DNA of 64,000 bases, taken from contig NZ_JAHNZT010000028.1 in NCBI RefSeq assembly GCF_019039035.1, positions 1 to 64,000 of the forward strand. The letters run 5' to 3'. This DNA is from Citreicoccus inhibens (GTDB lineage Bacteria; Myxococcota; Myxococcia; Myxococcales; Myxococcaceae). Below the pieces are notes generated by a model. It was not told the origin of the DNA and did not search any database. It was given only the letters and a program-made list of their open reading frames with translations. The position numbers and the translations under genes are program-made. Positions 19,488 to 30,805 of the stretch are shown one piece after another (within the stretch, counting starts at the first letter, position 1; every line of letters begins with the position of its first letter).

Positions 19488-20693
19488 CTAGAAGCGCGCC
19501 TGCATCTGCAGGGTGAAGAGATTGTCCTTCGGGTCCTTGGCGTCGGCGACCTTGGCGGTCATGGGGATCTCGTAGACCGCCGAAACCTTCAGGTTCTCAC
19601 CAAAGTAGTGCTGCACGAGGACGCCCACCGTGTTGACGGTGTTGTTCGCGCCCGGCACGCCGTTGGCCTCCACGTTGGGCGCGCCGTTGCGGGCATCGAA
19701 GCTGTCGAAGCGCACCGCCACCGCGTCGCTCAGGCCGAGGTTCTGCACCAGGAGCAGCCAGTAGCCGTGGGCCGAGGCGTTCAGGTTGGTGGCGTTGTTC
19801 GCGCCGCCAAACGTCTTGCCGGCGATGAACTCGCCCTTGAGGGCGGTGCCACCGATGGGCAGCACATCCAGGTAGACCTGGAGGTCCGCGCCAATGCGGG
19901 TGCGCTTGTAGGCGGTGCGGAACTCGTCGTTGGCCAGCTTGCCGAGCGAGTCGCCGTACCAGCCGGACACGCCACCGGCGATCCACTTGAGGTCGAACCC
20001 GACGCGGCCGATGACGTCCTTGTCCTTGTCGTTGTCCTGGACGGTGCCGGAGTCCGTGCCGTTGCCGTCGAACACGCCGATGTTCAGGCGCAGGAAGTCA
20101 TAGCGGCCGTTGAGCTTCACGCCGCGGTCGCGCTCGCCGGGCAGGAAGGCGCGGATGACGCGGCTGCGCTCCGGGAACTCGCGGTCGCTGGAGGACTGCG
20201 GCGCCTCATAGCCGAACGGCCACTTGGTCTGACCCGCGGTGAGCGACCACGTCTGCTTGGTGCCGGGGATGAACAGCGTGGCCTCGGCGTCCTTCAGCAC
20301 CACGCCGGAGGGCGTCGCGTCAATCTGGAGCATCGCCTGCGCCAGGTCCGTGGTGTACGTGGCCTTGAGGCGGCCCCGGCGCACGGTGAAGCGGCTGAAG
20401 CCGCCCGTCCCGTAGTCATCCAGCGACTCCTGGTACTGGTAGCGGGCCTGGATGTAGCCGGAGATCTTCAACTTCTTCAGGGCCGAGAGGTCGGACTGCG
20501 CCGTCGCGTTCTGCTCTTCCAGGGCGGCGACCTTGCCTTCGGCGGTCGTCATCCGCTCATCGACGGTGGGCTCGGCGGCGGCGGTGGCCTCGGTGGGCTG
20601 CGTCTCGGAGACGGCCGGCGTCTGGGGCTCGGCGGACTGCGCCAGGGCCGCGCTGGATGTCAGGGTGAGGAGGGCAACAAGGAGGTTACGCAT
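19488..20693 (-). CDS. OprO/OprP-like phosphate- or polyphosphate-selective porin
   Basis: This 401-residue outer-membrane protein has a signal peptide (NLLVALLTLTSSAALAQ), a short coiled-coil-prone region (MTTAEGKVAALEEQNATAQS) and a beta-barrel of the porin O/P family. Typical segments are ISGYIQARYQYQES, FTVRRGRLKATYTTDLAQAM and the C-terminal aromatic ending LFTLQMQARF. Its location directly upstream of pstS suggests that it admits phosphate or polyphosphate through the outer membrane under starvation. A PHO-box-like pair lies 74-89 bases before its start. Anion specificity is inferred from family and context. Confidence 0.88.
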   Translation of the reverse strand: MRNLLVALLTLTSSAALAQSAEPQTPAVSETQPTEATAAAEPTVDERMTTAEGKVAALEEQNATAQSDLSALKKLKISGYIQARYQYQESLDDYGTGGFSRFTVRRGRLKATYTTDLAQAMLQIDATPSGVVLKDAEATLFIPGTKQTWSLTAGQTKWPFGYEAPQSSSDREFPERSRVIRAFLPGERDRGVKLNGRYDFLRLNIGVFDGNGTDSGTVQDNDKDKDVIGRVGFDLKWIAGGVSGWYGDSLGKLANDEFRTAYKRTRIGADLQVYLDVLPIGGTALKGEFIAGKTFGGANNATNLNASAHGYWLLLVQNLGLSDAVAVRFDSFDARNGAPNVEANGVPGANNTVNTVGVLVQHYFGENLKVSAVYEIPMTAKVADAKDPKDNLFTLQMQARF

Positions 20694-20766
20694 GTGTTTG
20701 GAGGGCTCCTGAGAAGACCGCGGACTGTCTTCTACGGAGCACTTGTGGCCATTTGAGGTCCCTCTC

Positions 20767-20782
20767 GTGACAACGCGGCAAC
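20767..20782 (-). promoter_or_regulatory. PHO-box-like half-site pair before the porin gene
   Basis: On the minus strand GTTGC and GTCAC are separated by six bases, an 11-bp period. The same two words with the same period occur upstream of the adjacent regulator gene. The position, 74-89 bases before the porin start, is suitable for activation by a PhoB-type regulator. Confidence 0.5.
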
Positions 20783-20787
20783 GAGTT

Positions 20788-21477
20788 TCACGTGGCCGAC
20801 GGATCCACGATGCGGTAGCCCACGCCGCGCACCGTCTCCAGGAGCGCGCGCGCCGTCCCCAGCTTGTCGCGCAGGCGCATCACGTGCGTATCGATGGTGC
20901 GCGTCTCCAAGGAGCTGGACAGCCCCCAGACCTCCTCCAGCAACAGCTCTCGCGTCTGCACCCGGCCCAGCCGCGTCATGAGGTGCTCCAGCAGGCGGAA
21001 CTCCAGCGCGGTGAGGGCCACCTCGCGCTCGTCGACGTAGAAGCGATGGGACGCCACGTCCAGGCGCAGGGGCCCGAGCGCGAGCGGCTGCAGTCCGTCC
21101 TTGGGCGTGCCGCCGCGGCGGACAATGGCCTTGAGCCGCAGCACCAGCTCGCGCACGGAGAAGGGCTTGACGACGTAGTCATCCGCGCCCACCTCGAAGC
21201 CGCGGATGCGGTCCGCCTCCTCGCTCTTGGCGGTGAGCATGACGATGAGCACGTCGCGCGAGTGCACGTTCGCCCGGAGCTGACGGCAGACGTCCACGCC
21301 GGACATGTCCGGCAACATGAGGTCCAGCAGGACGACGTCGGGGGGCTGCTCCCGGGCCGCGGTGAGCGCCGCCTCTCCAGTGCCCGCCACCCGAGTGGTG
21401 AAGCCAGAGGCGCGCAGGTTGAAATCGATCAGCTCGGCGAGATCGCGCTCGTCGTCAACGATGAGGACATGGGACAT
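20788..21477 (-). CDS. OmpR/PhoB-family response regulator of the pst locus
   Basis: This 229-residue two-domain regulator has an N-terminal receiver (acidic pair in IVDDERDL, phosphoacceptor Asp in LLDLMLPDMSG, Lys in YVVKPFS) and a C-terminal winged helix (LTALEFRLLEHLMTRLGRVQ, then DTHVMRLRDKL and VRGVGYRI). It probably binds the PHO-box-like sites before its own gene and the porin-pst genes. No histidine kinase is adjacent; the nearest PhoR-like kinase in the window is at 33.5 kb with its own regulator. From memory, Myxococcus xanthus has an orphan PhoP4, to which this could correspond. ATG 21477 is preferred over the 15-codon upstream extension. Confidence 0.9.
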   Translation of the reverse strand: MSHVLIVDDERDLAELIDFNLRASGFTTRVAGTGEAALTAAREQPPDVVLLDLMLPDMSGVDVCRQLRANVHSRDVLIVMLTAKSEEADRIRGFEVGADDYVVKPFSVRELVLRLKAIVRRGGTPKDGLQPLALGPLRLDVASHRFYVDEREVALTALEFRLLEHLMTRLGRVQTRELLLEEVWGLSSSLETRTIDTHVMRLRDKLGTARALLETVRGVGYRIVDPSAT

Positions 21478-21515
21478 GGCGGCCTCGCACTCTGAGCGCG
21501 TCGCTTTGCCGCCGC

Positions 21516-21542
21516 GTGACACGCCGGCAACAAGTTCGTGAC
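21516..21542 (-). promoter_or_regulatory. triple PHO-box-like half-site array before the regulator gene
   Basis: Minus-strand half-sites GTCAC (21538-21542), GTTGC (21527-21531) and GTCAC (21516-21520) repeat at exactly 11-bp intervals, 39-65 bases upstream of the regulator start. The exact spacing and the recurrence of the same words elsewhere in the locus support a PhoB-type operator and autoregulation. Confidence 0.55.
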
Positions 21543-21590: not shown

Positions 21591-22538
21591 TCAGCTGCGA
21601 GGCAGGGGCTTGGCCGCGCGCTCCAAGGCATTGGGCTCGTGGCCCGAGTGCTCACGCCCCGCGTGCTCGGCGCCCGCGGGATTCAACAGCATGGCGGCGT
21701 CCACCGCGCGCAGCTCGCCGTTGAAGCCGCTGAACGCGATGGTGCGATGCGGGCGGATGAGGGACAGCTCGTAGAGCTCCTGGTACGCCACCAGGACCTC
21801 GGGCTCATGGCTCAGCGCGGCGAGCGCGCGTCCCACCGCGGACGGGTACTGGCCCTTGGCCTCGGCGACCATGCCCGCGATGTGTGCCTCCGTCTCGGCT
21901 TCCAGGAGCGCCACGCGCTGTCGGCCCTCCTCCTCGATGTCCGCCTTGGCGCGCTCCAGTCGGGCGGAGATGGTCTCCAGCACTTGATGGGACACCTCGG
22001 GCAGGAGGCTGACGTTGCGGATGAGGACCGCGTCCACCTCCAGGCCCCAGCGCGCCGTCTCCGCGGCGACGTCGCGCTGCAAGAGGTCTCCCAGCTCGTT
22101 TCGGTCGCAGAGGATCTGCTGGAACTCGCGGTTGCCCAGGATGGAGATGGCCGAGTGGGTGACGAGGTTGTTGAGCGAGCGATCCCAATCCGCCACGTCG
22201 AACAGGGCCTTGGCGGGATCCGCGATGCGAAACTCCAACCACAGGTCCACGATGACGGTGGTGCCGCGCGCGTCGTTGACGTGGATGTTGTTGAACTCTC
22301 GGAAGTCGCGCCGCAGCGAGACGGGCACCGTCTTCACCCAGGGCAGGGCGCGGGCGAGCAGCCAGTGCCAGCCGGGGCGGGTGATGACGCGCTCCAGCCG
22401 GCCGAAGCGCGTGACGATGACGGCCTCCTCGTCCTCCACCTGGAGGGCGAGGCGCTGGAGGATGCCGAAGAGGAAGGGCAGGGCCGCGAGTCCGAGGACG
22501 AGGCCACCGAAGAAGTGCAGGGTGTCAGGGGAGTTCAT
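21591..22538 (-). CDS. SPFH/band 7 (slipin/HflC-like) membrane protein, second copy
   Basis: This 315-residue protein has one N-terminal membrane anchor (LHFFGGLVLGLAALPFLFGI) and an SPFH domain (VEDEEAVIVTRFGRLERVIT, then RPGWHWLLARALPWVKTVPV), followed by a charged helix (ARLERAKADIEEEGRQRVAL) and an Asn/His/Glu-rich tail. SPFH proteins form membrane microdomain scaffolds or regulate membrane proteases. Its ATG overlaps the stop of the preceding SPFH gene by four bases, so the two are likely partners in a hetero-oligomer, like HflK/HflC. No protease gene lies beside them. Confidence 0.87.
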   Translation of the reverse strand: MNSPDTLHFFGGLVLGLAALPFLFGILQRLALQVEDEEAVIVTRFGRLERVITRPGWHWLLARALPWVKTVPVSLRRDFREFNNIHVNDARGTTVIVDLWLEFRIADPAKALFDVADWDRSLNNLVTHSAISILGNREFQQILCDRNELGDLLQRDVAAETARWGLEVDAVLIRNVSLLPEVSHQVLETISARLERAKADIEEEGRQRVALLEAETEAHIAGMVAEAKGQYPSAVGRALAALSHEPEVLVAYQELYELSLIRPHRTIAFSGFNGELRAVDAAMLLNPAGAEHAGREHSGHEPNALERAAKPLPRS

Positions 22539-23407
22539 CGCGAGTCCTTCCGGTAGATGGTGCGGGCATCGGACGTCACCTCGGAGCGGCGGCGGGCGAC
22601 GTAGTGGTGCAGGGTGTTCTTCTGGGCCAGCTCGCTCAGGTAGCGGCCCAGGGTGCCGATCTCCGTCTCCACGGCCTTGGAGTGCGCCCGCGCGATGGCG
22701 AGTCCCCGCTCGGCGGCGAGCACGCGCTGCTGCGTCTCGGCCTCGGCCCGCGCGTGGGTGGCGTCCGCTTCGGACCGCGCCTGGATGACGGCGTTGAGCG
22801 CGTCGGCCAACTCGTCCGGAGGCAGCACGTCCGTGAGGTCCACCGCGTTGAAGCCCACGCCATAGCGCCGGCCGATGCGCGTGCGGCAGAACTCCTCGAT
22901 GCGCGCGTTGAGCATGCGCCGCTCGCGCCGGATGAGCGCGTACGAGCCTGGCTCCTCCGCTCCGCTCGGGGCCTTGTCCGGCGCCTCGCGGAAGTTGGCG
23001 ATCTCATTGCGCAAGAGGCAGGTGAACAGGCCGGTGATGTGCTCGATGGGCGAGCGCAAGCCGAAGAGGAAGTGGCTCAGCTCCCGCTCCACCGGCACGT
23101 AGCGGAGGATGGAGTCCAGCCGCAGGAGGGTGCCGTCCGCCGCCATGGCGGTGCGGCCTCCCTCCTCGCCGGACAGGTCCAGGTTCTGCTCCATCATCGG
23201 GACATGGATGACCTTCTCCCAGGGCCGCTTCCGGTGCAGCCCGGGGCCGTAGGTGCGCAGCCGCTGCGAGTCCTCCTCGCGATGCACGGCGCGGCCGAAC
23301 GACGTGAGCACCGCGAGCTGGCCCTGCTCCACTTGGAAGAAACAACGACTCAGGATGAAGGCGCCGTAGAGGGCGGCGCCGCCCAGGATTCCGAACAAGA
23401 ACGTCAC
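22535..23407 (-). CDS. SPFH/band 7 membrane protein, first copy
   Basis: This 290-residue protein has an N-terminal anchor (FLFGILGGAALYGAFIL) and an SPFH domain beginning VEQGQLAVLTSFGRAVHREE, with a long helical region near the C-terminus rich in Ala/Glu/Arg (SEADATHARAEAETQQRVLA). It differs clearly from its partner at 21591-22538, so it is not a recent duplication. It starts 29 bases after the SulP/carbonic-anhydrase gene, which suggests that the SPFH pair organises or controls that transporter. This link is inferred from gene order only. Confidence 0.87.
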   Translation of the reverse strand: MTFLFGILGGAALYGAFILSRCFFQVEQGQLAVLTSFGRAVHREEDSQRLRTYGPGLHRKRPWEKVIHVPMMEQNLDLSGEEGGRTAMAADGTLLRLDSILRYVPVERELSHFLFGLRSPIEHITGLFTCLLRNEIANFREAPDKAPSGAEEPGSYALIRRERRMLNARIEEFCRTRIGRRYGVGFNAVDLTDVLPPDELADALNAVIQARSEADATHARAEAETQQRVLAAERGLAIARAHSKAVETEIGTLGRYLSELAQKNTLHHYVARRRSEVTSDARTIYRKDSR

Positions 23408-23436: not shown

Positions 23437-25605
23437 TCAGAAGCGGCCCGGGCCTCGCGGCCGTCGCGCGAGCGCTCCAGGGCTGTTCGAGAGCTGCGCT
23501 TCACCGTGCGGTCCGTGCCCGGTGGGCACGTGCACGAGGGCGCCTGCCTTGACGTACTTGTGGTAGGCGGACGCGAGCCCGCGGTTCACGTCGACCACGT
23601 CTTCGTTGAACTCGAGGTGGGACGCCGAGACGAGCGGCAGCTTCTCCGCCTTCTCCGCGGTGTCGACGATCATCCCGTGCGGCACGAAGCGCCCGTCGGG
23701 AATCTCCACGCCCACCACCACGGCGCCAATGCCGATGTAGCAGTGCGAGCCGACGACGGAGTCGTGCACCACCGCCTTGAAGCCCACGAAGGTGTCATCC
23801 CCGATGAAGCACGGGCCATGCACCAGCGCGTCGTGGGCCATGGACACGTTGCGGCCCACGTAGACGGCCCACTCCTCGCCGCCCACGCGCACGCGCTTGT
23901 CCTTGAGGGCGTGGATGACCACGCCGTCCTGCACGTTGGAGTTGTCTCCGATGAAGAACGGCGAGCCCTCGTCCGCGCGCACCGAGCTGCCCGCGGCGAT
24001 GTGCACGTGCTCGCCCATGGTGACCCGCCCGATGACGGCGGCCTGCTCGTGGACGAAGGCGGAGGCGGCCCGGTGTGCTCGGGCGCGGATGTTGCGCAGC
24101 CACGCATGGTCCTGGGGCGGGGCCTCGTGGCCGTGGGGCTGGCGGGCCTCGGCGCGGTCCTTGTGGAGCACCGCGCGGATGCCGGTGGCCTTGCGCGCCT
24201 GCGTCTCCCGGGCCTGGGCGCGCGACTTGCGCGTGAGCCAGAGGTGCACGCCGTGGATGGCCATGCCCGCCGCGAGTCCCGCCACCAGGTGTCCGGTGAC
24301 GGTGCCCACCGCGGTGACGATGAAGGCCACCGCGCCCAGCTTCTCCGTGTGCCACAGGTGGCGCAGCGTCTTCAGCTCGATGAGCCGCATTCCCACCACG
24401 CACAGCAGTCCGGCCAGCGCCGCCAGGGGGATGATGGCGAGCTGCTGGGACAGATAGAGCACCGCGAGCAGCAGCGCGGCGGCGTGCACCAGCGCGGACA
24501 GCCGCGTCTTCGCCCCGCTCTGGACGTTGACGCCCGAGCGCACGATGACGCCCGTGACGGGCATGCCGCCGAAGAGCGCCGAGCCCGTGTTGGCCACCCC
24601 CTGCCCGATCAGCTCCAGGTCCAACTGTGGCGGCGGAGCCGTGGGGGCCATGCGCTCCACCGCGCGCGCCGCGAGCAGGGACTCGGCCGCGGCGAGCAGC
24701 GCCAGCGGCAGGACCTTCCACGCGAGGGTGAGCCACTGACTGCCTTCCATCGAAGGCAGCGCCGGGAAGGGGAGCGAGGAGGGCACATCCCCCACCCGCG
24801 AGATGCCCCAGCCCAGGTATTCGGCCAGCGCGGTGATGAGCGCGATGCCCACCAGCGCCGCGGGGAAGCGCTTGAACTGCTGGGTGGAGACAACCAGGAA
24901 CGCGACGAACAGGCCGCAGAGCACCGCCGTGTAGGAGACGTCGCGCAGCCACTCCGGGCGGTCCAGCATCTGCGCCAGCTGCGCCACGGTGTAGTCGAAG
25001 CCGAAGAGCTCCGGGAGCTGGCCATCCAGGAGCTTGATGCCGACGCCGGTGGTGAAGCCCACGAGCACCGACTCCGGCACCAGGCGGATGAGCTTGCCGC
25101 CGCGCGCCAGCCCCATGGCGATCTGCAGCCCGCCAATGAGCAGCGCCGCCGCCGCCGCGCCCGCCACGCCGAACTCCGCGACGATGGCCAGCACCATCAC
25201 GTTGAGCGCCGCGGCTGGCCCCGTCACCTGCAGGGGCGCGCCCCCGAAGATGGCCGCGAGCCCACCGCCGATGGCGCCCGCGATGAGGCCCGCCGCGGGA
25301 GGCAGGCCGCTCGCCACCGCGAGGGCGAGGTTGAGCGGCAGCGCCACCGCCGCCACGGTGATGCCGGCCAGGAGGTCCGCGGGCAGGTGGCGGCCGGTGA
25401 GGACCTCGCCCCAGGCGCGTGTCCAGGCTTGGAACAGCTCGCGCGAGGCGTGTCGGGGCGTCGCCGCTCCGGGGGCGCTCCGCGGGGAGCCCTTCGCCCG
25501 CTCATGCATGGGGCGGGGCGCGGGCAGCGGCGTGCGTCTTCTTCTCCCATCGGGAGGCCGACGGGGCACGACGTCGATGGATTGTGGATGTGAGGGATTG
25601 AGCAT
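23437..25605 (-). CDS. SulP-family anion transporter fused to a CcmM-like gamma-carbonic anhydrase
   Basis: This 722-residue fusion has, after a ~55-residue Arg/Pro-rich N-terminus, a SulP transport domain at about 60-460 (LLAGITVAAVALPLNLALAV, then VTGPAAALNVMVLAI and GGMPVTGVIVRSGVNVQSGA). It ends without the usual STAS domain. After a charged linker a left-handed beta-helix domain follows at about 510-690 with RADEGSPFFIGDNSNVQDGV, VIHALKD, YVGRNVSMAHDALVHGPCFI and VGSHCYIGIGAVVVGVEIPD. This reads like the gamma-carbonic-anhydrase domain of carboxysomal CcmM and Cam. It would couple bicarbonate transport with CO2/bicarbonate conversion at the inner membrane. Anion specificity is unproven. 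SPFH genes follow in the same operon. Confidence 0.88.
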   Translation of the reverse strand: MLNPSHPQSIDVVPRRPPDGRRRRTPLPAPRPMHERAKGSPRSAPGAATPRHASRELFQAWTRAWGEVLTGRHLPADLLAGITVAAVALPLNLALAVASGLPPAAGLIAGAIGGGLAAIFGGAPLQVTGPAAALNVMVLAIVAEFGVAGAAAAALLIGGLQIAMGLARGGKLIRLVPESVLVGFTTGVGIKLLDGQLPELFGFDYTVAQLAQMLDRPEWLRDVSYTAVLCGLFVAFLVVSTQQFKRFPAALVGIALITALAEYLGWGISRVGDVPSSLPFPALPSMEGSQWLTLAWKVLPLALLAAAESLLAARAVERMAPTAPPPQLDLELIGQGVANTGSALFGGMPVTGVIVRSGVNVQSGAKTRLSALVHAAALLLAVLYLSQQLAIIPLAALAGLLCVVGMRLIELKTLRHLWHTEKLGAVAFIVTAVGTVTGHLVAGLAAGMAIHGVHLWLTRKSRAQARETQARKATGIRAVLHKDRAEARQPHGHEAPPQDHAWLRNIRARAHRAASAFVHEQAAVIGRVTMGEHVHIAAGSSVRADEGSPFFIGDNSNVQDGVVIHALKDKRVRVGGEEWAVYVGRNVSMAHDALVHGPCFIGDDTFVGFKAVVHDSVVGSHCYIGIGAVVVGVEIPDGRFVPHGMIVDTAEKAEKLPLVSASHLEFNEDVVDVNRGLASAYHKYVKAGALVHVPTGHGPHGEAQLSNSPGALARRPRGPGRF

Positions 25606-27004: not shown

Positions 27005-27445
27005 CTATTCCACTCCACCCACGAGGAAGGACACGAGCAACAGCGCGAGCACCGCCGCGGTGATGGCGACGAAGACGCGGTCCTTCTGGAGCCGGAACAC
27101 GCCCAACGACAGCGCCACCCGCAGCACCGGCACGGACATCATCACCAGCAGGCCCGCCATCACGAACGACTGGCCGCGCACGGCGAGCACGCCCTGGAAG
27201 ACATCCGTCAAGCGATGCAGGCCGTGGTCCGGCGCCGTGAGTCGCTCCAGCGCCGTGGACGACGAGAAGTAGTCGGGGTGGTGGAAGAACGTCAGCCCCA
27301 TGCCCACGGCGACCAGCGACAGGCTCAGCATGACGCCGCCTCGCAGCAGCATGCTGATGAGCAGCTCCGGCGTGAGCGCGGGCGCCTGGGGAATGGGGGC
27401 CGCGACAGGCGCGCTCGGGCGTGGATTGGGGGAGGACAGGCTCAT
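27005..27445 (-). CDS. DUF1634-family membrane protein
   Basis: This 146-residue protein has a Pro/Ala-rich N-terminus and three membrane segments (MLLRGGVMLSLSLVAVGMGL, then SFVMAGLLVMMSVPVLRVAL and VFVAITAAVLALLLVSFLVG). DUF1634 genes are habitually found next to TSUP transporters, as here, where the ATG overlaps the stop of the TSUP gene by four bases (27442-27445). It is likely an accessory subunit of that transporter. Its biochemical role is unknown. Confidence 0.8.
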   Translation of the reverse strand: MSLSSPNPRPSAPVAAPIPQAPALTPELLISMLLRGGVMLSLSLVAVGMGLTFFHHPDYFSSSTALERLTAPDHGLHRLTDVFQGVLAVRGQSFVMAGLLVMMSVPVLRVALSLGVFRLQKDRVFVAITAAVLALLLVSFLVGGVE

Positions 27446-28290
27446 CCGTGCACGCCCTTGCGCAGCATCTCGAAGGCCACCCACAGCAGCACGACGACGA
27501 ACAGGGCGCGCAGCCAGCCGCTGCTCAGCTTCGTCATGAAGCGCGAGCCCGCGAACGCGCCCAGCGTCACGCCCACGCACACGGGGCCCGCGATGAACGG
27601 GTCGATGTCGCCGCGCGCGAAGTAGATGCCCGCGCTCGCCGCCGCCGTCACACCAATCATGAAGTTGCTCGTGGCCGAGGAGACCTTGATGGGCAGCCCC
27701 ATGGCCAGGTCCATGGCGGGCACCTTCAGCGCGCCCGAGCCGATGCCCAGCAGGCCACTCACCGTCCCAGCCACGTACATGAGCCCGAGCCCGACCAGCG
27801 GCCGGCGCACGCGATAGGCCACCTCTCTCCCCGAGGCCTCATCGAAGTAGCTGCTGTGCAGGCCCAGGCGATCCGCCAGCGCGTCGTTCGCCTCGGTCGC
27901 GCGCGTGGGTTGCTCACGCAGCTTGCGCAGCATCGCGAGCGCCGAGTACGCCATCACCGCGCCGAAGAGGAGATAGAGCCCGCGGCCTCCCACCACGCCC
28001 GCAAGCAACGCCCCGGTGAGCGCGCCGGCGGTGGTGGCCAGCTCCAGGAACATCGCCACGCGCATGTTGGCCAGGCCATCGCGAACATAGGCCGCGGCGG
28101 CGCCGCTGGAGGTGGCGATGACCGACACGATGGAGGCGCCCACCGCGTAGCGGATGTCCACCTTCAGCACGAGGGTGAGGATGGGGATGAGGATGAGCCC
28201 GCCGCCGAGTCCCAGCAGCGAGCCGAGCAGGCCCGCCACGACGGAGACGACCATCACGAGCGCGACGAAGTTGAAAGGGGTGGCGAGCAC
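27442..28290 (-). CDS. TSUP-family (TauE/SafE) sulfite/organosulfur anion transporter
   Basis: The protein has about 282 residues from GTG 28290. A duplicated set of membrane helices begins FVALVMVVSVVAGLLGSLLG, with the family motif LGGGLILIPIL, and in the second half GLGLMYVAGTVSGLLGIGSG followed by ALKVPAMDLAMG. TSUP proteins export or import sulfite, sulfoacetate and related anions. ATG 28344 is an alternative start but lacks a ribosome binding site, while GGAGAGG lies 14 bases before the GTG. It is coupled to the DUF1634 gene by a four-base overlap. Confidence 0.87.
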   Translation of the reverse strand: MLATPFNFVALVMVVSVVAGLLGSLLGLGGGLILIPILTLVLKVDIRYAVGASIVSVIATSSGAAAAYVRDGLANMRVAMFLELATTAGALTGALLAGVVGGRGLYLLFGAVMAYSALAMLRKLREQPTRATEANDALADRLGLHSSYFDEASGREVAYRVRRPLVGLGLMYVAGTVSGLLGIGSGALKVPAMDLAMGLPIKVSSATSNFMIGVTAAASAGIYFARGDIDPFIAGPVCVGVTLGAFAGSRFMTKLSSGWLRALFVVVLLWVAFEMLRKGVHG

Positions 28291-28382
28291 GCGACGCGCA
28301 TCATCCTCTCCCGCGTCCCGTGCACAACCCCTTTGGCGAGCCATGGCTCGGCCGGCTGGCTGCTCACGGTCGCGGAACGGCG

Positions 28383-28631
28383 TCAGGGCGGGGGCTTCGG
28401 CTCCGGGTGCTCCGCCGCGGGTGGGTGCCCCGGCACCTGGGGAAGAGGCCAACCCTGGAACATGGGCCACGCTCGGTACGCGTCATACGGGTGCTCGGGC
28501 GCGGAGGGGGCCGCCGGGGCGGAGCGCTCTGGACGCATCGGGTGGGGCGGGGAGCGCAGCAGAACGTAGGAGAGCACGGAGCACAGCAGGGCCAGGGCGG
28601 CGATGCTCCACGCGCGGGCCCGGTTGTCCAT
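28383..28631 (-). CDS. small proline-rich membrane-anchored protein
   Basis: This 82-residue protein has an N-terminal membrane helix (SIAALALLCSVLSYVLL) followed by a Pro-rich tail with PHPMRPERSAPAAPSAPEHP. No family was recognised. It starts 23 bases after the ClC channel gene on the same strand, so it is probably co-transcribed. Compositional bias and the proper membrane anchor suggest that it is real. Confidence 0.6.
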   Translation of the reverse strand: MDNRARAWSIAALALLCSVLSYVLLRSPPHPMRPERSAPAAPSAPEHPYDAYRAWPMFQGWPLPQVPGHPPAAEHPEPKPPP

Positions 28632-28654: not shown

Positions 28655-30430
28655 CTAGAAGCGTCCGTGTTTCAACACCTCGGTCTTGGAGATGGTGCCC
28701 AAGAGGTGCCGCGCGTCATCCACCACGGGCAGTCGCTCCAGGGGCGTGCGAGCGAAGCGAGTGGCCACCTCCGCGAGTGACAGGCCGGGGGTGATTGGCT
28801 GCACGCGTCGGTCCATGACGTCCGCGGCCACCGTGGCCTGGAGCAGCGAGTGGTCCGGCAGGTGCCCCTTGAGCTCGTCCAGGACGATGACTCCCAGCAG
28901 GCGCCCGCTCTCGTCGGTGACGTACAGGTCCATGCCGGGGGGCTGCTCCAGGAGGAGCACCACCACCTCATCGAAGGGCGCGGAAGGCGGCACGCGTTGC
29001 GTGACGGGCATGAGCATCCCGCGCACGCCCTCCTCGCGCAGCCAGTAGGGGACCGAGTCGGGCACGCGCACGTCGCGGCGGTTGAGCACCGACGTGTAGA
29101 GGGACTCGGGCTCCAACCACCGGCTCACGGCGGTGGAGACCACGGCGCCCAGCATGAGGGGCAGGATGAGGCCGTAGTCGCCGGTCATCTCGAATATCAT
29201 CAGCACCGCGGACACGGACGCGTGCGTGGTGCCCGCCAGCACCGCGCCCATGCCCAGCAGGGCGTACGCGCCACTCGGCGCGCCCCCGGGCGCGAGGTGG
29301 CCCACCACCACGCCGAACGCGCCGCCCAGGAGCGCGCCGAAGAAGAGCGAGGGCGTGAAGAGCCCGCCTGGGACGCCAGCGCCCGCGCACAACGAAGTCA
29401 CCGCGAGCTTTGCCAGGGGGAGGCCCACCAGCAGCAGGAAGGGGAGCGACCCGTGCAGCGCCATGTTCACCGGGTCATAGCCATTGCCGAGCAGATACGG
29501 CCAGCCCATCGCGGCCACGCCCACCACGGTCATCGCGGCCAACGGGAGGAAGGGGGCCAGCCACGCTGGCGCGCGGTCGAGGAGATCCGACAGCGCGTTG
29601 ATGCCGCGCACGTAGCCCGCGGACGCGGCCCCGAGCAACACCCCGAGCAGGAGCGTCAGGAGCAGCTCCCGTGGGTGGGTGAGGACGTAGTGCGGGATGA
29701 CGTAGCTGGGGTGATCCGCGATGAGCGTGCGGGACACGAGGGTGGCCACGACGCACGACACGACGATGGGGCCGAACAGCTCCAGCGCGAAGCTGCCGAG
29801 CAAGACTTCGAGTCCGAAGAGTGCCGCGCCAATGGGCACGTTGTAGGCGGAGGCGATGCCCGCCGCGGCGCCGCACGCCACGAGCAAGCGGGCCTGTCCG
29901 GGGCCCAAGCGCAGGCGCTGGGCGAGCGCGGATCCACTGGCCGCGCCTGTCTGCAACAGCGCGCCTTCGCGTCCCAGCGGCGCGCCGAGCCCCACGACGA
30001 TGATGGACACGAGGCCGCGGAACAGCGCGCGCGGCAGCGGGAGTCGTCCGGACTTGACCCAGATGGACTCGATGATGCCCGCGGTGCCGTGGCCGCGAAG
30101 GGGCTGGCCCACGAGCAGCGACACCAGGGACACGAGCGCGCCGCCGAGGACCGGGACGAGGAAGCGGCGCCACGCGGGAGAGGCGATCGCGCCCGCGATG
30201 AACTCATCGCCGTTGACGTGCCAGAACAGGTTCTGGGTGACGCGCAGCACTTGGAGCAGGGCCACGGCGCCGAGGCCGGAGATGAGGCCCACGCCCACCA
30301 CCATGGCCCAGAAGCGTCGCTCCTGGTTCGTCAGCCCCTTGAGCAAGCCCCCCAGCTGTGGGGGCAAGGGCCGGCGTGCCCGCCCGTCTGGCAGGGAGTC
30401 ACCGCGCGCTGATTCAGGGGTGGTGTCCAC
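28655..30430 (-). CDS. ClC-family chloride channel/transporter with CBS pair
   Basis: The protein has about 591 residues from GTG 30430. The ClC core has the anion-pathway motifs RGHGTAGIIES (GSGIP-like), GREGALLQTGAASGS with the gating Glu, and GVPGGLFTPSLFFGALLGG. A C-terminal CBS domain pair (about 460-591; MLMPVTQRVPPSAPFDEVVV and VMDRRVQPITPGLSLAEVAT) would bind nucleotide and regulate it. It moves chloride, perhaps in exchange for protons. The frame is open upstream to 30646, but GTG 30430 with GGGGAC just before it is the likelier start. A small Pro-rich membrane protein follows. Confidence 0.9.
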   Translation of the reverse strand: MDTTPESARGDSLPDGRARRPLPPQLGGLLKGLTNQERRFWAMVVGVGLISGLGAVALLQVLRVTQNLFWHVNGDEFIAGAIASPAWRRFLVPVLGGALVSLVSLLVGQPLRGHGTAGIIESIWVKSGRLPLPRALFRGLVSIIVVGLGAPLGREGALLQTGAASGSALAQRLRLGPGQARLLVACGAAAGIASAYNVPIGAALFGLEVLLGSFALELFGPIVVSCVVATLVSRTLIADHPSYVIPHYVLTHPRELLLTLLLGVLLGAASAGYVRGINALSDLLDRAPAWLAPFLPLAAMTVVGVAAMGWPYLLGNGYDPVNMALHGSLPFLLLVGLPLAKLAVTSLCAGAGVPGGLFTPSLFFGALLGGAFGVVVGHLAPGGAPSGAYALLGMGAVLAGTTHASVSAVLMIFEMTGDYGLILPLMLGAVVSTAVSRWLEPESLYTSVLNRRDVRVPDSVPYWLREEGVRGMLMPVTQRVPPSAPFDEVVVLLLEQPPGMDLYVTDESGRLLGVIVLDELKGHLPDHSLLQATVAADVMDRRVQPITPGLSLAEVATRFARTPLERLPVVDDARHLLGTISKTEVLKHGRF

Positions 30431-30805
30431 GTCCCCGCAATCTAGGGACGCGACTGGGGATGCACCGTCCCGCGAGGGGAGGGCTCCCCGCTCGCTCCCC
30501 GGCAAGGAACCCAGGCATCGTGGCGCGCGCGTGGCGCTGCGCCGAAGTCTCGCGCTCGCACGGCGATCGAATGCAGGGGCGTCACGTTCGCGCATCGGTG
30601 CGGACGCGAAGCCCTCGCTCTCCAGCGCAGCGCCGGAGCGCCGCATCGCTCAGCGGTCCAGCCTCGGAGCGCCGCCGCGCCTCGCGGTACGGAACCGGGA
30701 GCACCGCGCTCGGGTGCCCGGTGGGCTAGCGCCCGAGCATTGCTCCTCGAGGGCGGAGTCCGAGGCGCTACCAGTGCACCGCGCGCGGACGTACCTCCGA
30801 CGCCG
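30431..30805. other. intergenic region, nothing recognised
   Basis: These 375 bases lie between the ClC start and the protease stop. The ClC frame stays open to 30646 with Arg/Ser-rich translation, which could mean a longer N-terminus, but nothing shows it to be coding. No strong hairpin or repeat was noticed. Confidence 0.35.

Follow-up and report, generated by a model that had tools for sequence, protein, structure and literature searches.

The window analysed here, a 64,000-nucleotide stretch of a Citreicoccus inhibens contig, holds a gene that joins a SulP-type permease to a carbonic anhydrase (CA), followed by two genes for SPFH/band 7 proteins (Table 1). An earlier note, made from the letters of the sequence, had read a SulP permease and a gamma-class CA in one frame at this place; the coordinates prove exact, the strand is minus, and Pfam and NCBIfam matches support both halves. 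We confirmed that a SulP transporter lacking STAS, a short linker and a gamma-CA make up a single polypeptide, although translation may begin at the internal Met33 and not at Met1. The Pfam model Sulfate_transp matches residues 76-431 with an E-value of 1.4e-66 (225 bits against a cut-off of 23.2). No Pfam match to a STAS domain is found in the protein, and residues 460-494 are too short for one; the gamma-CA takes the place of the usual STAS, as the earlier note had it. A profile search of the C-terminal domain, which that note had proposed as a check, matches both expected NCBIfam models, CcmM at residues 495-685 (E = 1e-56) and the Cam-type carbonic anhydrase at residues 514-683 (E = 9e-52), each below its curated equivalog cut-off. 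A sequence search of the PDB returns CcmM 3kwc (7e-49), the Cam-like CA 9lin and Cam (1qrf and others, about 5e-45), and after these BicA 6ki1 and other SulP structures.

Table 1. Features of the SulP-CA fusion gene and the SPFH genes that follow it, in window coordinates.
Feature	Coordinates	Strand	Evidence or remark
SulP-gamma-carbonic anhydrase fusion gene	23437..25605	-	single open frame, 722 aa plus stop
SulP (SLC26-like) transmembrane domain, residues 76-431	24313..25380	-	Pfam, AlphaFold2, Foldseek
Cytoplasmic linker, residues 460-494, at STAS position	24124..24228	-	low-confidence model segment, no STAS match
Gamma-class carbonic anhydrase domain, left-handed beta-helix and C-terminal helix, residues 495-685	23551..24123	-	
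Variable C-terminal tail, residues 686-722, invariant last Phe	23440..23550	-	
Zinc ligand His565 codon (Cam H81)	23911..23913	-	H in 43/43 fusions
Zinc ligand His591 codon (Cam H117)	23833..23835	-	H in 43/43 fusions
Zinc ligand His596 codon (Cam H122)	23818..23820	-	H in 43/43 fusions
SPFH_C, first SPFH/band 7 protein, 290 aa, one N-terminal TM	22535..23407	-	Pfam Band_7 E 5e-16
SPFH_K, second SPFH/band 7 protein, 315 aa, 4-nt overlap with SPFH_C	21591..22538	-	Pfam Band_7 E 5e-26

The fusion is not an artefact of frame or assembly, nor a chance juxtaposition, as it occurs in frame at no fewer than (at least) 40 other loci in Myxococcota and Bdellovibrionota. How widely it is spread, a survey that the earlier note had called for, was followed in two sets of genomes. 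A scan of 84,980 species genomes (GTDB) with two peptide patterns, which fusions lacking both patterns would escape, yields 40 SulP-gamma-CA loci and two further contigs that end inside the gene (L022-L061 and L062, L063, respectively). The records are metagenome-assembled genomes, almost all from Myxococcota, with two loci (L056, L057) from Bdellovibrionota; the next best matches are cyanobacterial CcmM proteins without SulP. Among 60 related genomes searched whole, the full fusion is present in nine, a set that is not independent of the scan, since some contigs, being equal in length, are probably common to both. In a plasmid search the matches listed were SulP proteins only, and no record had one place covering 80% of the query. 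One related genome (locus L017, G004:C706) encodes a three-domain SulP-STAS-beta-CA frame with the motif CADSRISPN (identified by eye), which shows that the beta type already known is present in this bacterial family as well.

The CA domain has both the left-handed beta-helix fold and the three zinc histidines that characterize gamma-class enzymes of the Cam clade. Loss of those histidines had been named in the earlier note as what would defeat an enzymatic role; all three are present, and invariant among the fusions. By alignment, R543, D545, E546, N557, Q559 and D560 correspond to Cam R59, D61, E62, N73, Q75 and D76, and N674 to Cam N202 by alignment position, every one of them identical in 43/43 fusions. 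Modelled with AlphaFold2 from an alignment of 63 sequences, the domain reaches a mean pLDDT of 93.7; in Foldseek this model comes out closest to a Cam-like CA and Cam (1.0-1.1 A rmsd), with CcmM also among the best matches at 44% identity. In the full-length model the CA part is weaker because the fusion-only alignment is shallow. As judged from alignment and fold, the domain is a gamma-class carbonic anhydrase with predicted metal binding and catalysis. The enzyme could be slow, because the acidic loop that carries Cam's proton-shuttle Glu84 is missing and a Lys stands there in 43/43 sequences.

Whether this CA should be called carboxysomal can be addressed from its relatives. CcmM of beta-carboxysomes (3kwc, 7o4z) shares with it the gamma-CA fold and the absence of the Cam insertion loop, and CcmM is its top NCBIfam model; the score of 192 bits nevertheless lies under the equivalog cut-off of 550, a threshold meant for a longer domain. 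Cam from Methanosarcina thermophila (1thj, 1qrf) has the same fold at about 1 A rmsd, the three zinc histidines and most active-site residues, but is a separate soluble enzyme with the acidic Glu84 loop. Mean identity of the fusion CAs is 48% to Cam versus 40% to cyanobacterial CcmM. In the CA tree, which is midpoint-rooted and includes few Cam-like sequences, a branch with 99/98 support parts CcmM from Cam plus the fusions; the fusion CAs are not nested in CcmM, and Cam and CcmM each fall outside the fusion group. Unlike CcmM, the fusion is joined to a transporter and has no SSUL/RbcS-like repeats after the CA domain (Pfam gives no RbcS match, and just the 37-residue variable tail follows). 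The genome, rated 100% complete, contains neither a RuBisCO large chain (PF00016) nor a BMC shell protein (PF00936). The host is thus the carboxysome-free bacterium that the earlier note supposed, while its label "carboxysomal CcmM-type" does not hold: the missing repeats, the higher identity to Cam and the tree speak against it, and without repeats, RuBisCO or shell genes, membership in the CcmM scaffold family is ruled out. The gamma-CA of the fusion is no farther from Methanosarcina Cam than from CcmM.

The two SPFH genes follow the fusion with great regularity. SPFH_C lies directly 3' of it in 40/40 loci with downstream DNA, at a spacing of -4 to 100 nt; SPFH_K comes next in all 38 whose contig continues, mostly with a 4-nt overlap. 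The Bdellovibrionota loci keep the pair too, despite SPFH proteins there being 35-38% identical. Close SPFH_C homologues (48-100% identity) are restricted to the same nine of 60 relatives that encode the fusion; the chance of the same nine genomes coinciding is about 7e-11 on the assumption of independent genomes, which these are not. From gene order and co-occurrence, fusion and SPFH pair appear to be a conserved operon, with the SPFH proteins as obligate-looking partners. A second, generic tandem SPFH pair, about 30% identical, occurs in many related genomes with changing neighbours (L131-L138), and in the eight loci viewed no SulP gene lies beside it.

Other genes of the window lie close by. 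A PhoB-like response regulator gene and then a Porin_O_P gene (19488-21522) come directly 3' of the SPFH pair; they are not conserved in relatives, and might co-regulate the operon here. Overlapping tandem genes for a DUF1634 protein and a TauE/SafE exporter precede a gene for a SixA-type phosphatase at 27005-28470. A ClcB-like ClC chloride channel with a CBS domain, another anion transporter, is encoded upstream of the fusion at 28655-30646. The porin, PhoB-like regulator, ClC, TauE, DUF1634 and SixA genes were rejected as operon members, as none is conserved beside the fusion in relatives.

Beyond the CA helix the tail is variable, yet every complete fusion protein (42/42) ends in Phe, preceded by Arg in 33 of them. 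This invariant residue could serve as a signal for docking to the SPFH proteins. The C-terminal domains of SulP proteins lie in the cytoplasm, as established for SLC26. The SPFH domains are predicted to lie on the same side as the CA, with SPFH_C oriented N-out, from charge counts read by the positive-inside rule, as Lys and Arg follow the membrane segment: SPFH_C has none before its single TM in 40 sequences and has them after it in 40/40, and in SPFH_K they are more numerous after than before in 27/37, with the reverse in none. In other systems, hetero-oligomers of SPFH proteins assemble into domed rings (PMC12624060).

The SulP half is modelled mostly at pLDDT above 90, and Foldseek places it with AtSULTR4;1 (the best fold match), prestin and BicA at E-values of about 1e-22. 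It shares its transmembrane fold with BicA (6ki1), AtSULTR4;1 (7lhv) and other SLC26/SulP transporters. With a Sulfate_transp score above the Pfam cut-off and the SLC26 fold, it belongs to SulP/SLC26 despite the missing C-terminal STAS, because SulP proteins without STAS exist, as in the can2-linked clade (PMC6458275). Differences from BicA go beyond STAS. E308 takes the position of BicA D258, R356 that of a Gly in BicA, and on this alignment retention of a BicA-like Na+ site is unlikely. Both residues are invariant across the two SulP types found in the fusions. The second type occurs in three loci, L058-L060, whose SulP half comes from another clade (a 100/100 split on a very long branch); their CA and SPFH sequences, by contrast, fall within those of the other loci, in trees with some internal supports below 95. 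The simplest account of these trees is that the transporter half was replaced while the CA, the tail and the SPFH genes stayed.

We favor, with a probability of roughly 0.62, a bicarbonate transporter with a tethered cytoplasmic CA that would work as a unit with an SPFH hetero-oligomer. The SulP domain would carry HCO3-, probably by H+ coupling or anion exchange and not through a BicA-type Na+ site. The gamma-CA, which would have to trimerize to be active, would interconvert HCO3- and CO2 where the transporter opens to the cytoplasm and so keep the gradient steep; the direction of flux that we infer would provide a heterotroph with bicarbonate or CO2 for anaplerotic carboxylation and for balancing its pH. 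The two SPFH proteins would assemble as hetero-oligomers into a ring or dome at the cytoplasmic face, clustering or enclosing the transporters, with the C-terminal Phe docking the fusion to them. The oligomeric states of the two halves present a conflict. Zinc sites of gamma-CAs sit between the subunits of a trimer, and SulP proteins for the most part dimerize, with STAS contributing to the contact. Where STAS has been lost, the CA may be free to impose a trimeric state; alternatively, a mixed lattice may arise.

The cargo could instead be sulfate or another anion, with the CA serving local pH by consuming or supplying protons for H+-coupled anion symport. By Pfam the genome has no SulP gene besides the fusion, whose R356 and E308 are as in the H+-coupled AtSULTR4;1, its best fold match, and the Na+ site pattern of BicA is absent. 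Residues of the E308/R356 type are nevertheless common in SulP proteins and leave the substrate unfixed, and bicarbonate is the cargo indicated by those SulP-CA pairings that have been studied (PMC6458275). The CA half, moreover, is kept while the SulP clade changes; a constant CA and SPFH pair with an exchangeable anion carrier favors the substrate of the CA as the cargo, and we consider the sulfate reading unlikely.

An improbable account to much the same degree makes the SPFH pair a quality-control partner of the transporter, of the FtsH type, and not an organizer of transport, with the Phe tail as a degradation tag. HflK and HflC bind FtsH, the SPFH proteins of the operon are weakly similar to both, and a tail that varies except for its last residue could be a degron. 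The pair resembles HflK/HflC, QmcA and stomatin, SPFH proteins that occur singly or in pairs and carry a membrane segment at the N terminus, but represents a subfamily distinct from all of them: scores against the NCBIfam equivalog models are 59.7 versus a required 159.4 bits for HflK and 23.9 versus 134.4 for HflC, and the second SPFH protein is nearer to stomatin and QmcA than to HflK. The charge bias described above would put the SPFH domains in the cytoplasm, unlike those of HflK/C, and no protease gene is recognized in the cluster.

Least probable is a hexapeptide domain that acts as a non-catalytic trimerizing scaffold assembling SulP trimers under an SPFH ring, like the CA-like domain of Synechococcus elongatus CcmM, which is reported to be non-catalytic; the close CcmM homology, the missing Glu84 loop and the absent STAS dimerization domain would suit it, but a pure scaffold should have lost some active-site residues, and the zinc ligands and all checked catalytic residues outside the E84 loop are invariant in 43/43 fusions.

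The favored reading, a transporter-CA unit organized by SPFH proteins, has a bolder form that we regard as doubtful. A closed SPFH dome over a patch of SulP-gamma-CA proteins, recruited by their C-terminal Phe tails, would make a protein-walled membrane chamber in which bicarbonate and CO2 are interconverted. If this were true, the SPFH-domed chamber would be a membrane-bound inorganic-carbon microcompartment in heterotrophs, a carboxysome analogue without shell proteins or RuBisCO.

Pairing of SulP permeases with CAs is itself known. Felce and Saier reportedly described SulP-beta-carbonic anhydrase fusions, such as Rv3273, in 2004. SulP genes adjoining or fused to genes for beta-CAs are predicted to encode bicarbonate transporters (PMC6458275); the literature found agrees with the earlier note that the CA in known SulP fusions is mostly of the beta class. 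Those fusions, and sulP-can2 operons such as can2-sulP of Acidithiobacillus, have a SulP permease joined to or adjoining a CA, as here. The present protein likewise has both parts on one chain, but its CA is of the gamma class and not the beta class (the folds are unrelated), STAS is lacking, and an SPFH pair is always next. No report of a gamma-CA fusion or of an SPFH-SulP link, nor of an SPFH pair with a transporter-CA fusion, was found in the open-licence PMC literature searched. It would appear that this is an undescribed, conserved variant of the SulP-CA fusion with an SPFH pair, its novelty limited by the known beta-CA fusions. Because the same two SPFH genes follow the fusion in every relative with readable downstream DNA, the cluster may represent a bacterial machinery, as yet undescribed, that transports inorganic carbon and converts it.

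Few bacterial SPFH proteins have a clear role, and here one pair gains a specific, predicted membrane-protein partner. The arrangement resembles that of AE1 with stomatin and carbonic anhydrase in the red cell: human stomatin, itself an SPFH protein, binds this HCO3-/Cl- exchanger and increases its activity, and stomatin-deficient red cells have a bicarbonate permeability that is 47% lower (PMC5383999). SulP transporters have been joined to CAs at least twice in evolution, with enzymes of unrelated folds, and this is strong evidence that the pairing is useful.
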